NCBI RefSeq assembly: GCF_001611675.1
Contig: NZ_CP014766.1
Span: 682,001 to 746,000, forward strand
DNA: 64,000 nucleotides
Direction of reading: 5' to 3'
Source: Pontibacter akesuensis
GTDB lineage: Bacteria > Bacteroidota > Bacteroidia > Cytophagales > Hymenobacteraceae
Every line of letters starts with the position of its first letter. Position 1 is the stretch's first letter. The position numbers and the translations under genes were made by a program. The notes under the pieces are model-generated. The model was not told the origin of the DNA. It ran no database searches and saw only the letters and a list, made by a program, of their open reading frames with translations. This document shows positions 1-13,375 of this stretch, piece by piece.

Positions 1-1947
1 GCTGAGCTTATCTCGCTGCTGGTGCGCAGCTATTGCCAGCCTTTTAGCCAGTGCAACGTGGTGTCGGTGGCGCCAACGTACCCGCTGTACCAGATGGAGG
101 CTGAGGCGCTTGGCGTACAGTTTAAGCAGGCCCCGCTCAACAGCAGGTATGCCTACGATTTACCTGGCATGCTGCGGCAGATTGACGCTGAAACGCGTAT
201 TCTCTTTTTATCAAACCCGAACAACCCAACAGGCGGCTACCTGACTAAAACGGAGCTGGAGTGGCTGCTAAGGGAGGTGCCACCACACGTGCTGCTGGTG
301 ATGGATGAGGCCTACCTGGAGTACGTGTCTGCCCCCGATTATGCCAATGCCCTGCCCTACCTGCCGCAACACGAAAACCTGGTGGTGCTCCGAACTTTCT
401 CCAAAGCCTACGGATTAGCCTCGCTGCGTGTAGGCTACCTGATTGCTCAGCAGCAGGTGGTGTGCAGGATTATGGCCGTGAAGCAGCCGTTTAACGTGAA
501 CCAGTTGGCGCAGATCGCTGCCCACGCCGCCCTTTACGACCAGAAGCACCTGCACCACACGCTCGAGCAAACGCACATAGGCAAAGGTCATTTACAGCAT
601 TTGATGCAATTGGAGGGCGTGCAGTGGTGGCCATCGGAAGGCAACTTTCTGTTTGTGGATGCCGGACTGCCTGCCCGGCAACTGGCTGAGCCACTCCTGG
701 AAAACGGCATCCAGGTGCGCTACACCGACAGCAACTATAATTTCCGGATCACGGTTGGCACACCGGCGCACCAGCAGCACCTGCGCGAGCAGCTCCATGC
801 CATCCTCTCCCCTGAGAGCATATGGCCCAATAAAGTGCTCGCCCAGATTCTTAAAACAGGCTATACGCTTTCGAAAACAGACGATGTGTTTCAGGCCCTG
901 GCTACTGTGTCTGAACTAGCTGAAACGGCCAATAACATTGGCACGGCTGCCGAACGCATTGCCCTGGCCTTTGCGCGCGCCTTCAGCAGTTGCCTCGGCC
1001 CGGAGGGGAACCAACATACCGGCAACCTGTACAGCAGCACTTTTGGCGAAACGGATATGATCTCGGCTTTTAACGTGCTGGTAAAATCAACGCCACTCGT
1101 TACGTTCGGCCACCACTTTGGCAACCTGGCCATTGCCGAGACCACTGCTGGAGCTTCCGAAATCCATATCCTGGACCTGGGCATTGGCGGTGGGTTGCAG
1201 TGGCTGCACCTACTGGAGCTATTTGCCGCGCGTGGAGAAAGCGCCCCGAAGATTCGCATTACGGGGGTAGATATTCCTTCTGCTGTTGGCGCACCAGATA
1301 AAAAACTGCAGCAAACAGGCAAAATGCTAACACAGCATGCAGAAAAGCTTGGCCTTCGGTTTAGTTATACGGCCATTGCCCAGCGGCTGGAGGTAGTGAA
1401 CCTGCGTAAGATTTATACCGCCGAAAACGAGGTGCTGGTGGTAAACTCTGCCTTCACGCTGCACCACCTGCCCGACCATCTGCTGGGGCCTGTGGACTAC
1501 CGCGACAGAATACTGCAACAGATTAAAGCGTTACAGCCCGCCATACTTACGCTCACCGAGCCAGACTCTGAGCACAACAAGCTGCGCTTCCTGCCACGCC
1601 TGCGGGAGTCGCTGCGCCATTACTACACCGTTTTTGATGCCCTGGACACACTGCTCCCCCGACTAATGCCTGAGCGCCAGATCATTGAGCAGGAGTTTTT
1701 CGGGCGCGAGATCATCAACGTTATTTCCTGTGAGAAACTGCAGCGCGTGGAGCGCCACGAGCGCCACGAAGCCTGGATGCACCGCCTCATCCGAAACGGC
1801 TTCGCCCCGGCGCCCATCAAAGACTCTGCAATCCAGATAAAAGAGAATTTGAAGCTGCACGTAAACTTTTCAGTACAACCGAACGGCGCTGGTAATACCT
1901 TGCGCTGGAAAGAGACTCCGGTTGTCGCCGCTACGGCATGGGTATAG
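1..1947 (+). CDS. HisC-like aminotransferase fused to a GRAS domain (5' truncated)
   Basis: The frame is open from base 1, so the true start lies upstream; roughly the first 90 residues of a HisC-type domain are missing. Bases 1 to about 815 encode a fold-type I PLP aminotransferase resembling histidinol-phosphate aminotransferase: SNPNNPTGG, the DEAYLEY aspartate motif, and SKAYGLASLRVGYL with the Schiff-base lysine codon at 403-405. From about 830 the protein continues into a GRAS domain (Rossmann-type, SAM-methyltransferase-like fold known from plant DELLA/SCARECROW proteins and some bacteria): IHILDLGIGGGLQW matches VHIID, VNSAFTLHHLPD and EPDSEHNKLRFL match core GRAS segments, HYYTVFDALD matches PFYRE, FFGREIINVISCE precedes RVERHE, and the terminal WKETPVVAATAWV matches the SAW motif. 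No stop lies between the domains. The enzymatic role of the fusion is unknown; small-molecule binding or methylation coupled to transamination is inference. Confidence 0.85.
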   Translation, partial: AELISLLVRSYCQPFSQCNVVSVAPTYPLYQMEAEALGVQFKQAPLNSRYAYDLPGMLRQIDAETRILFLSNPNNPTGGYLTKTELEWLLREVPPHVLLVMDEAYLEYVSAPDYANALPYLPQHENLVVLRTFSKAYGLASLRVGYLIAQQQVVCRIMAVKQPFNVNQLAQIAAHAALYDQKHLHHTLEQTHIGKGHLQHLMQLEGVQWWPSEGNFLFVDAGLPARQLAEPLLENGIQVRYTDSNYNFRITVGTPAHQQHLREQLHAILSPESIWPNKVLAQILKTGYTLSKTDDVFQALATVSELAETANNIGTAAERIALAFARAFSSCLGPEGNQHTGNLYSSTFGETDMISAFNVLVKSTPLVTFGHHFGNLAIAETTAGASEIHILDLGIGGGLQWLHLLELFAARGESAPKIRITGVDIPSAVGAPDKKLQQTGKMLTQHAEKLGLRFSYTAIAQRLEVVNLRKIYTAENEVLVVNSAFTLHHLPDHLLGPVDYRDRILQQIKALQPAILTLTEPDSEHNKLRFLPRLRESLRHYYTVFDALDTLLPRLMPERQIIEQEFFGREIINVISCEKLQRVERHERHEAWMHRLIRNGFAPAPIKDSAIQIKENLKLHVNFSVQPNGAGNTLRWKETPVVAATAWV

Positions 1948-1986: not shown

Positions 1987-2026
1987 AACCCACCCCTGCC
2001 CCTCAAAGGAGGGGCAGGGGTGGGTT
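1987..2026. repeat. Perfect G/C-rich palindrome, family A
   Basis: Two 18-bp arms (1987-2004 and 2009-2026) are exact reverse complements around a 4-base loop AAAG. The sequence is of the type ACCCACCCCTGCCCCTC. Related copies occur at 29581, 49789, 49869, 51906, 53789 and 56508, always between genes. Confidence 0.85.
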
Positions 2027-2100: not shown

Positions 2101-2285
2101 AACTATACCAGTTGAAAAACTATACAAGCAGCAAGTTTGTAACTTGTGGCTACATGCAGCAGGTTTGCAACCTGGGTAGACCAGGGTAATTTATACTTGC
2201 GCAAGTTGAAAGCCTTATCCTGTTTCATAACTTTTTCAGATTCGGCGCTTTTCGATGCACAGAACCGAAAGGGGGGCAGCAAATT

Positions 2286-2390
2286 ATCCCCTTGAGGAGA
2301 TTACAGGGGTGTAAAGCGTCTATTTAGTAGCCAAAGTAATATTCTGCAGGTTTAAACACCCCTGTGGTCCCCTCAAGGGGACAATCTCTT
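2286..2390. repeat. Facing pair of CCCCTTGAGG..AGGGGTGT repeats
   Basis: The left unit at 2286-2314 is largely the reverse complement of the right unit at 2352-2389. The right unit shares AATATTC-GCAGG-TTAA-CACCCCTG with a copy at 29474-29503 (reverse strand) and GCAGGTGTAAACA with 49792 onward. This is the same broad repeat class as the 1987 palindrome. Confidence 0.65.
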
Positions 2391-2492
2391 CACCACCTCA
2401 AGTGCCTCTCTAACAAAATATGCTTTTACAGAAAAGCTACAAAACAGGATAAGGTTGCAAGCTTGCGATAAACCTAAGCCAGCCATACTTTA

Positions 2493-11296: not shown

Positions 11297-13375
11297 TTAA
11301 GCTACAGCTACTTTTTTAACAGGTTCTTCTTCTGGTTCCAGTACGGTCTGAAGTATGGCAGGCACTTCGTAGCCGCGGTTTTCGCACAGCCACTGATAGA
11401 GTTTGGCCACACCCTCCTGCACGTTGTGCTTCGGATACCAGCCTGTTGCCTTCTGAAACTTGCGTGTATCAGACACATAATAATGCTGATCGCCCGGGCG
11501 CCATGGGCCAAACTTGAGCGGAATTTCTTCGCCACGGTAATGGCCGATGGTCTTGAGCAGTTCCAGCAGGCTGACCGTGTTTTCCGGTCCGCCGCCAATG
11601 TTGAAGGCTTGCCCGGTAATGGTATCCATGTGCTCCTGTGCAAGTATAAAGGCATCCACCAGATCCTCCACAAAGAGGATGTCGCGCACCTGCTTGCCGT
11701 CGCCATAGATGTTTATGTTCTCGTCCTGAATGGCTTTGATAGCGAAGTGTGCCACCCAGCCTTGGTCTTCGTTTCCGTACTGATGCGGACCGTAGATACA
11801 GCTCATGCGGAACACCGTCATCGGCAGGTTATACGTGCGGGCATAGTCGATCACGTACTGATCGGCGGCGCCTTTCGAGCAACCGTAAGGGCTGTGAAAA
11901 TCAAGGTGGCGCTTTTCTGAGATGCCGTTTTTCTTGATCACCTCGTTTTCCGGATAGTAGCGTGAGCCGTTAGAGATAAACTTCAGGTCCTCCAGCCCAC
12001 CGTATACTTTGTTGGTAGAAGTGAACACCATCGGCGGTGGATTGTCCTGCTCCCGTATCGCCTCCAGCACGTTGATGATACCGCGGGCGTTTATCTCGAA
12101 ATCGTTGATCGGCAGGTCAAGCGAAGTGGTCACGGCTACCTGTGCAGCAAAGTGAAATACCTGTTCAGCCCGCTTCATCACTTTGCGCACCGACTGCAGG
12201 TCACGAATATCGCCCACGTACACCTCCAACTTATCGCCGTAGGTCTCGTGCAGCCAGTGCAGGTTCTGCTCCACACCGTCGCGGCCGAGGCTATCGAATA
12301 CCATCACCCGCTTGCCCTGCTCCAGCAGGCGCTTGGCCAGATTGGTACCCACAAAACCAGCTCCACCGGTTATCAGGGCGTAAGGCTCGCTGCTGTCCTC
12401 CACGGTACGTTTGATGTAGCTTAGCTCACTTAGCTTTTTAAGGCCGTGCTTTGCCCAAAGCCTGTACAGCAGCTTGGTAGTACCGTCAGATCTTCTTAAC
12501 CCAAAATGGTACTCGCGGTCGTCCAGGTGAAAGCCCGCCACAGTCGGCAAACTTGCATCCAGGTCCTTTACTGCGTACCAGTAAACCCGCGTGGCATCCG
12601 CCTGCAAGGCTAGCTTAAACTCCTGCAACTGCTTGTACTCGTCGTGCTGCCAGGTAGAAAAACCTGCTTCGGTAATCCAAAGTTCTGCCGTGCAGTTGTT
12701 GCGCTCCATCACCTCGCGCACCGATCGGATCGTGTCGTCCCATCCGTCCCACATCTGGTCGAACACGTGCGGAAATCCGTGGATGCCCACAGCATCGATA
12801 TACTGCATCACGCCCCGGTCGTACATGGTTTGCAGCCAATTTGGGTCTACCGGGCTCATGCCGCCCAGCAGGGTTTTCTTACCCAACTTTTTGCACCAGT
12901 ACGCAGCACCGCCAATCATTTCGGCAAACTTAAACCAGCCGTAGTCGTGCGTAAAATCATACTCTACGGTGTTGTTCGGCTCGTTCCACAGCTCCACCCA
13001 TTCAAAGTGCTGCCCGTGGGCGGCAATGAATATATCCAGGAAATCGGCGTAGGCCTTTTTGTCTTTCGGTGGGGAGGAGGTGCGCGGCCTTTCCGCTATA
13101 CTGGGTGGCGTGTACAGGAAGCAGGGAAGTATGTTTACCTCCTTGGCCAGCGTGGGAATCAGCCAATCGTACCAGCCCTTGCCCTCCGGCGTGTAGTAGT
13201 CGGCCCAGGACACACCGGTGCGCAGCTCTGTCACGCCCAGTTCCTTCAGGTCGGCAAGTGTTTCCTGCACATGCGTATACTCACCCGGCCGAAACCACTC
13301 TACCATGCCCACCACAGGAAGCGAGACGCTGTTAGTTGTATCTTTGTCTTCAATATTCATGTCTTTCAAATCCAT
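11297..13375 (-). CDS. Glycoside hydrolase (clan A-like)-NAD epimerase fusion
   Basis: 692 residues in one frame. Residues about 20-315 form a TIM-barrel resembling clan GH-A beta-glycosidases (GH39-like): VELWNEPNN with acid/base candidate Glu132 and WITEAGFS with nucleophile candidate Glu236. Residues about 330-670 are an extended SDR epimerase/dehydratase resembling CDP-paratose 2-epimerase: ITGGAGFVGTNLA at 335-347, FHFAAQVAV, FTSTNKVYG, and SPYGCSKGAADQY with the Tyr-x3-Lys pair. No signal peptide, so it is cytoplasmic. A glycosidase tethered to a sugar epimerase is unusual; it could release and remodel a sugar, or the barrel may be a binding or transferase module. It is 25 bases from the upstream epimerase gene and 3 from the downstream dehydrogenase gene. 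Confidence 0.85.
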   Translation of the reverse strand: MDLKDMNIEDKDTTNSVSLPVVGMVEWFRPGEYTHVQETLADLKELGVTELRTGVSWADYYTPEGKGWYDWLIPTLAKEVNILPCFLYTPPSIAERPRTSSPPKDKKAYADFLDIFIAAHGQHFEWVELWNEPNNTVEYDFTHDYGWFKFAEMIGGAAYWCKKLGKKTLLGGMSPVDPNWLQTMYDRGVMQYIDAVGIHGFPHVFDQMWDGWDDTIRSVREVMERNNCTAELWITEAGFSTWQHDEYKQLQEFKLALQADATRVYWYAVKDLDASLPTVAGFHLDDREYHFGLRRSDGTTKLLYRLWAKHGLKKLSELSYIKRTVEDSSEPYALITGGAGFVGTNLAKRLLEQGKRVMVFDSLGRDGVEQNLHWLHETYGDKLEVYVGDIRDLQSVRKVMKRAEQVFHFAAQVAVTTSLDLPINDFEINARGIINVLEAIREQDNPPPMVFTSTNKVYGGLEDLKFISNGSRYYPENEVIKKNGISEKRHLDFHSPYGCSKGAADQYVIDYARTYNLPMTVFRMSCIYGPHQYGNEDQGWVAHFAIKAIQDENINIYGDGKQVRDILFVEDLVDAFILAQEHMDTITGQAFNIGGGPENTVSLLELLKTIGHYRGEEIPLKFGPWRPGDQHYYVSDTRKFQKATGWYPKHNVQEGVAKLYQWLCENRGYEVPAILQTVLEPEEEPVKKVAVA

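Follow-up and report, generated by a model that had tools for sequence, protein, structure and literature searches.

A HisC-like aminotransferase fused to a full-length GRAS domain in Pontibacter and its relation to plant GRAS proteins

Bacterial GRAS proteins reportedly featured in a domain survey by Zhang, Iyer and Aravind in 2012, as members of the Rossmann methyltransferase type that keep the residues for binding of S-adenosylmethionine (SAM). The GRAS domains of plants, such as those of DELLA, SCR and SHR, are regulators. The accessible parts of the literature describe the ancestral bacterial GRAS activity as a predicted methylase and name no substrate. In the available text of two reports, plant GRAS is derived from soil bacteria (PMC9942845, PMC12448838), and one of them places a single bacterial GRAS subgroup together with plants (PMC12448838).

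Histidinol-phosphate aminotransferase HisC possesses an N-terminal arm with Tyr20 that reaches the active site of its partner. In the portions available of the respective papers, transamination and methylation are divided between separate proteins: MppJ methylates phenylpyruvate and TyrB then aminates the product to β-methylphenylalanine, and HisC is listed as one of several enzymes able to turn Phe into phenylpyruvate (PMC11496134). SgvM is described as an α-keto acid C-methyltransferase in which two histidines hold a zinc ion and the keto acid is bound to the zinc (PMC10502145). BelI and CysG hold a calcium ion in a His-His-Asp site for carboxylate methylation of 3-isopropylmalate (PMC11408123).

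Architecture and conserved sites of the fusion protein

We analyzed a window of 64,000 nucleotides from Pontibacter akesuensis, the term denoting this whole stretch of DNA. Positions 1–1947 of the forward strand are open from end to end (648 amino acids) and hold the last 648 codons and the stop of a longer gene. In L002, which covers the same contig with 10 kb more and in which window position x corresponds to x+10000, the gene starts at an ATG 201 bases upstream of the window (L002 9800–11947) and encodes 715 amino acids in a single frame. Pfam assigns residues 12–330 to Aminotran_1_2 (163 bits, cut-off 19.7, E = 1.1e-47) and residues 359–714 to GRAS (PF03514; 297 bits, cut-off 27, E = 2.7e-88, profile positions 13–373 of 374), and neither a stop nor a frameshift lies between the halves. 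Taking Pfam, TIGR01141 and the fold together, the aminotransferase domain spans residues 12–333 (window 1–798, forward strand, residues 1–67 preceding the window). It is followed by a linker that is largely helical in the predicted structure (residues 334–358, window 799–873) and by the full-length GRAS domain (residues 359–714, window 874–1941). A preliminary description of the window had proposed one frame joining an aminotransferase to a complete GRAS domain. This was borne out by the two profile matches, of which the significant GRAS match settles the identity of the second half, and by the joined frame in all 22 genomes of the genus that contain GRAS. The description had covered all of the GRAS domain but missed the 5' end, since the first 67 residues lay before the window. 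A frameshift further upstream that would split the domains was looked for in the extended contig and is absent, the frame being conserved in 22 genomes.

The fusion gene provides the sole GRAS match in the host genome. Apart from GRAS, only aminotransferase-type families were matched in the fusion by Pfam (E 0.1), and neither a DELLA nor a DNA-binding domain was detected; the lack of an N-terminal DELLA domain sets it apart from the DELLA regulators. A structural model of the whole fusion reached a pLDDT of 81.7 and a pTM of 0.80. In seven pairs of sequences, dN/dS ranged from 0.04 to 0.18 for the aminotransferase half and from 0.07 to 0.13 for the GRAS half; both halves are under purifying selection.

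Downstream of the stop codon, an 18-nt inverted-repeat pair (window 1987–2026) is followed by a perfect 19-nt inverted repeat with a 4-nt loop (2059–2100), a possible terminator, while a terminator scan returned sites no more numerous than in its shuffled sequences. Between the fusion gene and a NUDIX gene, nested imperfect inverted repeats occupy window 2200–2467, with arms of 36 nt (2200–2235/2432–2467) and 43 nt (2270–2312/2356–2398), and resemble a small non-coding mobile element. A 692-amino acid frame on the reverse strand (window 11297–13375), which by eye combines a glycosidase-like half with an NAD-dependent epimerase-like half, lies close to several glycosyltransferase-like genes.

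The N-terminal half had been described as a HisC-like, pyridoxal phosphate (PLP)-dependent aminotransferase, and the profile and residue data agree with this. The nearest NCBIfam model is hisC, with the HisC equivalog TIGR01141 scoring 281.8 bits against a cut-off of 276.55 over model positions 26–347, and the first half of the whole-fusion model matches HisC structures (3get, Z 39.4). All 21 fusions aligned have Lys202, Asp169, Tyr172, Arg210, Arg307 and Arg316, of which K202, D169, Y172, R210 and R316 form the signature of fold-type I PLP aminotransferases. Lys202 (window 403–405, forward strand), located in SKAYGLASLR, is the expected Schiff-base lysine. Besides its fold (Z up to 39), its PLP residues and a TIGR01141 score just over the cut-off, which it has in common with HisC, the domain differs from HisC in its attached GRAS domain, its location outside a his run, its separate clade and its N-terminus. 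None of 8 aligned fusions has a tyrosine at the column of E. coli HisC Tyr20, and the nearest-ATG starts of the 22 fusions are found 10–13 residues before NENLFG, several with further in-frame starts upstream. Judged by alignment, the N-terminal substrate arm of HisC is absent from the fusion. The host genome contains another hisC, scoring 374 bits, in a run read by eye as hisG-hisD-hisC-hisB, so that histidine synthesis does not depend on the fusion.

The GRAS half, modelled alone with 30 relatives (pLDDT 90.6, pTM 0.90), is nearest in fold to plant GRAS, namely rice SCL7 (5hyz; Z 43.0, rmsd 2.4, 352 residues aligned), SHR (Z 42.9), SCL3 (41.9) and RGA (39.4), and matches 5hyz in the whole-fusion model as well (Z 40.5). 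These plant domains are matched over their full length (Z 38–43) at 25–29% identity. The VHIID-, PFYRE- and SAW-like motifs noticed in the preliminary description can be placed in the alignment, where IHILDLG, FFGREI, RVERHE, W703 and W714 align with the plant motifs, and W703 and R649/E651/W659 are common to the fusion and four plant sequences. Among the 50 fold matches listed, the best outside GRAS are methyltransferases at Z of about 18, YecO/CmoA, BelI and CysG (17.6–17.9 for the latter two), then EgtD (17.3) and SgvM (15.7), and many of these matches carry bound SAM or SAH. CmoA, BelI, EgtD, xanthosine and SgvM methyltransferases resemble the domain to a similar degree (Z 15–18), which does not single out a keto acid. 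Strand order and terminal hairpin are those of the class I methyltransferase topology. When a short bacterial GRAS protein (see below) was compared with solved sequences, the significant matches were plant GRAS, not methyltransferases.

The domain carries the signature of class I SAM-dependent methyltransferases, GxGxG after strand 1 and an acid at the end of strand 2. The glycines belong to the VHIID-type strand end and glycine loop DLGIGGG (residues 459–465, window 1174–1194), corresponding to SAM motif I in the alignment, and the acid is Asp491 (window 1270–1272), placed as the SAM ribose acid by alignment and model. All 45 bacterial GRAS sequences have G461, G463, G465, L554, H555, H556, E587, R600, E637, R649 and E651 in common. 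Position 491 is D or E in all 45 bacterial and in none of the four plant sequences, which have also all lost G463. R568 is lost in four of them, E637 in three and H556 in three, one of the latter being a gap in an incomplete printed sequence. By sequence comparison, bacterial GRAS proteins including the fusion keep SAM-pocket residues that are lost in the plant sequences compared, and the findings of Zhang et al., as reported in the accessible parts of PMC5834537, PMC4279901 and PMC6232258, agree with this pattern. The SAM-type pocket for which a structure prediction had been suggested is kept in both sequence and predicted fold.

Directly after strand 4 of the model, LHH (residues 554–556, window 1459–1467) contains an invariant His-His pair and represents a candidate metal or substrate site. 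After strand 5 follows EPDSEH (587–592, window 1558–1575), whose E587 is found in 45 and H592 in 42 of the 45 bacterial GRAS sequences. The conserved H555/H556 and H592 are likened to a two-histidine metal site by chain order only, in which respect the histidines after strands 4 and 5 may recall the metal sites of SgvM and BelI/CysG. We take the SgvM histidine to be placed after strand 4, as in the GRAS half of the fusion. BelI and CysG, among the best non-GRAS folds, likewise have adjacent histidines in their active site, but their solved chains comprise about 210 residues and their third metal ligand has no mapped counterpart in GRAS.

Distribution and genomic linkage

The fusion is carried by 22 of 50 genomes of the host genus. 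In all 22, the GRAS match lies within an open frame of 716–774 amino acids that also holds the aminotransferase, and mean column identity is 70% across 21 aligned fusions, an alignment that omits one near copy (L056). The whole-genome survey covered Bacteroidota in draws that overlap one another. GRAS matches were obtained in 22 of 200 genomes drawn from the family, all from the host genus, in 21 of 390 from the order, 8 of 395 from the class (7 over the cut-off) and 4 of 395 from the phylum. The order and class of genome G641 gave 1 of 114 and 1 of 244, and the family and class of G713 gave 1 of 8 and 2 of 187, one of the two below the cut-off. Fourteen named control genomes yielded zero GRAS matches in every one of these draws, and no fusion was found outside the host genus in the Bacteroidota draws. 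G641 is no exception: although 954 codons are open in its GRAS frame, the aminotransferase is encoded in another frame and ends at the GRAS start.

Pfam GRAS scores amount to 279–322 bits in the host genus, 238 bits in G641 and 78–123 bits in the remaining Bacteroidota, which we term short GRAS; comparing the highest- and lowest-scoring groups, only the former is fused to an aminotransferase. All 22 fusions, G641 and all 4 plant sequences share the SAW tryptophan W703, and none of the remaining 22 proteins (20 short GRAS and two from Skermanella) has a tryptophan at this position. A scan of viral contigs with a profile made from the GRAS alignment produced 98 pattern matches, none of them a relative. 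Plasmids searched with the GRAS half of the fusion returned nothing, while a short GRAS query found a GRAS gene on two Skermanella plasmids, the same two being found with the GRAS of G641. A Synechocystis plasmid methyltransferase matching short GRAS at E = 2e-3 was not counted.

Gene linkage was studied in up to 20 kb around GRAS genes, where open reading frames of at least 60 codons were searched with the aminotransferase half; later loci were also searched with a short-linked aminotransferase, some contigs were shorter, and the Skermanella loci extended 7 kb to each side. Nine of 23 stand-alone GRAS genes, from 8 of 15 genera and in both gene orders, adjoin a HisC-like gene on the same strand. 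In G641, a genome from another class than the host, this gene lies upstream and overlaps the GRAS start by the four bases ATGA. In eight of 20 short GRAS loci (L072, L073, L074, L080, L127, L128, L130 and L131) it lies directly downstream, its first ATG 1–188 nt past the GRAS stop; the L131 partner is incomplete, with 169 amino acids in one frame near the contig start, and was counted as adjacent. Two matches below the cut-off were dropped from these counts, G1281 (E = 9.6e-4, genome 61% complete) and G1418 (E = 9.1e-4). The chance of such an adjacency is approximately 0.0009 per gene, a rough figure that derives from 44 HisC-like genes in 9 genomes (about five per genome) with 5,500 genes assumed and that ignores the kinship of the genomes, the weight being put on the eight genera, the two gene orders and the fusion. 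A link between a PLP reaction and a SAM-type fold had been suggested in the preliminary description for the fusion; because genes of the same two kinds adjoin in other bacteria, it is strengthened, as a suggestion. A signal made from an amino acid, also envisaged there, would be a hypothetical product.

The other 14 stand-alone GRAS genes have no HisC-like gene within the stretch searched. In four of them GRAS is followed by a gene of 334–336 amino acids (L065 10602–11603 and the same place in L067, L070 and L071), and the L065 gene, which alone of the four was run against Pfam, falls in the phosphotriesterase family. Since HisC-like neighbours are missing from these 14 loci and four show a gene of this size instead, GRAS substrates may vary among bacteria. 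A D-2-hydroxyacid dehydrogenase is found near two short GRAS genes of one genus (L075 10983–11951 and L077 11795–12742, both on the reverse strand), neighbours that would fit a keto-acid substrate too. Both Skermanella plasmid genes (L089 6719–7837, L090 6719–7837) have no aminotransferase within 7 kb. They adjoin a gene annotated as PAS domain S-box protein.

A tree of the aminotransferases separates canonical HisC from the 22 fusions, which make up a single clade (100/100). Four short-linked partners form another clade (98/89) that is nearer to HisC; the tree was built with these four of the eight downstream partners and without those of L127, L128, L130 and L131. The partner in G641 falls outside the fusion clade, but a topology in which it groups with the fusions is not rejected (p-AU 0.144). 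Because the partners do not form one HisC subclade, the pairing of GRAS with an aminotransferase may have arisen more than once. The 8 aligned fusions retain HisC Arg322, but the four partners aligned from operons have G, A, G or L in its place, and the two sets of aminotransferases may therefore differ in substrate.

On the upstream side of the fusion gene, the next open reading frame lies on the opposite strand in 19 of 22 loci; on the downstream side this holds for 16 of 22. As the flanking frames are mainly on the other strand, the fusion gene seems to be mostly transcribed alone. A divergent gene for a MarR-type regulator adjoins the fusion start in 14 of 22 loci, for example L046 11787–12287 (forward strand), an assignment made by Pfam in one locus and by similarity in the rest, with HpaR as best NCBIfam model far below its cut-off. 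Such a divergent neighbour would be in line with the pattern seen in small-molecule pathways. The locus in the window has no MarR-type neighbour within the stretch around the fusion gene.

A proposed bifunctional enzyme and competing explanations

With moderate confidence, we propose that the fusion is a bifunctional small-molecule enzyme, in which an amino acid is first transaminated and the resulting keto acid then methylated. The N-terminal half would act as a HisC-family aminotransferase that lacks the HisC substrate arm and interconverts amino acid and α-keto acid, and the GRAS half as a class I SAM-dependent methyltransferase working on the keto acid so made. The His-His site of the GRAS half may hold and activate the keto acid, perhaps through a metal, so that a methyl group would be placed on the β-carbon or the carboxylate. 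The first half may then restore the amino group and yield a methylated amino acid. The two domains, their joining in one protein, the purifying selection on them, the linkage of such genes in other bacteria and apparently intact PLP and SAM signatures are seen in sequence or model. What we infer is a single metabolite shared by both halves, its nature as a keto acid derived from an amino acid, and its site of methylation. MppJ and SgvM, combined with a transaminase, offer a similar logic of transamination and methylation, with a Rossmann methyltransferase on a keto acid as proposed here for GRAS; they belong to another methyltransferase family and are separate proteins, and the metal site of GRAS is only putative.

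An enzyme pair may also be joined for the sake of co-expression, with two members of the same pathway working on different, non-consecutive metabolites. A shared pathway alone suffices to explain linkage, and some GRAS genes have phosphotriesterase-family or 2-hydroxyacid dehydrogenase neighbours instead. We consider this rather unlikely, given that the pair is met again and again, both as a fusion and as neighbouring genes with either one first. Moreover, the fusion gene seems solitary in the genus, and because no longer pathway is visible around it, consecutive steps are favoured. The plant relatives suggest yet another function, in which the GRAS half serves as a sensor that controls the aminotransferase on binding of SAM, SAH or a small molecule, or as a plant-like regulator. 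That plant GRAS domains are regulators and that the bacterial domain has the full-length plant-like fold speak for it. This is nevertheless unlikely, as G463, the acid at 491, H556, R568 and E637 are lost in plants but constant or nearly so in 45 bacterial proteins, a constancy expected of a kept catalytic pocket, and as the Pfam search found no DNA-binding or DELLA domain.

The TIGR01141 score just above the cut-off could instead mean that the protein is a second histidine-pathway or aromatic aminotransferase with GRAS as a neutral passenger. We judge this very improbable: the other HisC, with the far higher score, sits in the his gene run, the arm with Tyr20 is missing from the 8 aligned fusions, and the low dN/dS of GRAS in the seven pairs is at odds with neutrality. 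An artefact of assembly or gene prediction that joined two neighbouring genes has a negligible probability and is refuted by the same joined frame in 22 genomes and the 70% mean column identity of the aligned fusions. The bifunctional enzyme is the explanation we favour. The fusion is real and conserved and, as far as checked, constitutes a new domain architecture and linkage of a known bacterial family.

Kinship with plant GRAS

GRAS trees were calculated from four plant sequences and Bacteroidota, with one Skermanella sequence in the first tree only, and should be read with long-branch effects in mind. Owing to its very long branch, Skermanella was left out of the later two trees, and the third was thinned by 7 fusions that closely resemble others. 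In these unrooted trees the fusions, G641 and the plants are grouped against the short bacterial GRAS (100/99, three trees). Within that group, plants join the fusions with support of 98/86, 95/83 and 93/84 and so stand between these and the aminotransferase-GRAS operon of G641. A sister relation of the fusions and G641 is not rejected (p-AU 0.16; 0.31 / 0.27 (complement) in the third tree), and the same applies to plants with G641 (p-AU 0.158). Within the Bacteroidota survey, the fusion and the G641 operon appear to be the closest bacterial kin of plant GRAS found. We add here that both bacterial lineages nearest to plants in the sample are coupled to an aminotransferase. Plant GRAS differ from the fusion in that they have lost the glycine loop and the acid, are regulators and contain no aminotransferase half.

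Tentatively, and with considerable doubt, we suggest that the ancestor of plant GRAS proteins (DELLA, SCR, SHR and others) was the methyltransferase member of a bacterial aminotransferase-methyltransferase pair making methylated amino or keto acids, with the fold kept in plants, catalysis lost and possibly a remnant ligand pocket. That bacterial GRAS proteins exist was already known, as the preliminary description stated. Our literature check found no paper joining GRAS with an aminotransferase; Zhang et al. 2012 fell outside it, and an earlier mention there is possible. An aminotransferase partner is named in none of the accessible parts of papers on bacterial GRAS or on its origin.

If a single protein carried out both steps, it could produce a methylated amino acid on its own. 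The conserved fusion of an aminotransferase with the most plant-like bacterial GRAS found here narrows the substrate to something probably derived from an amino acid, and makes available a single protein on which the GRAS substrate can be assayed. The list of residues that separate bacterial GRAS from the plant sequences compared allows the loss of catalysis to be tested at each of these positions in turn. In this way, the ancestral job of a major family of plant regulators becomes testable.
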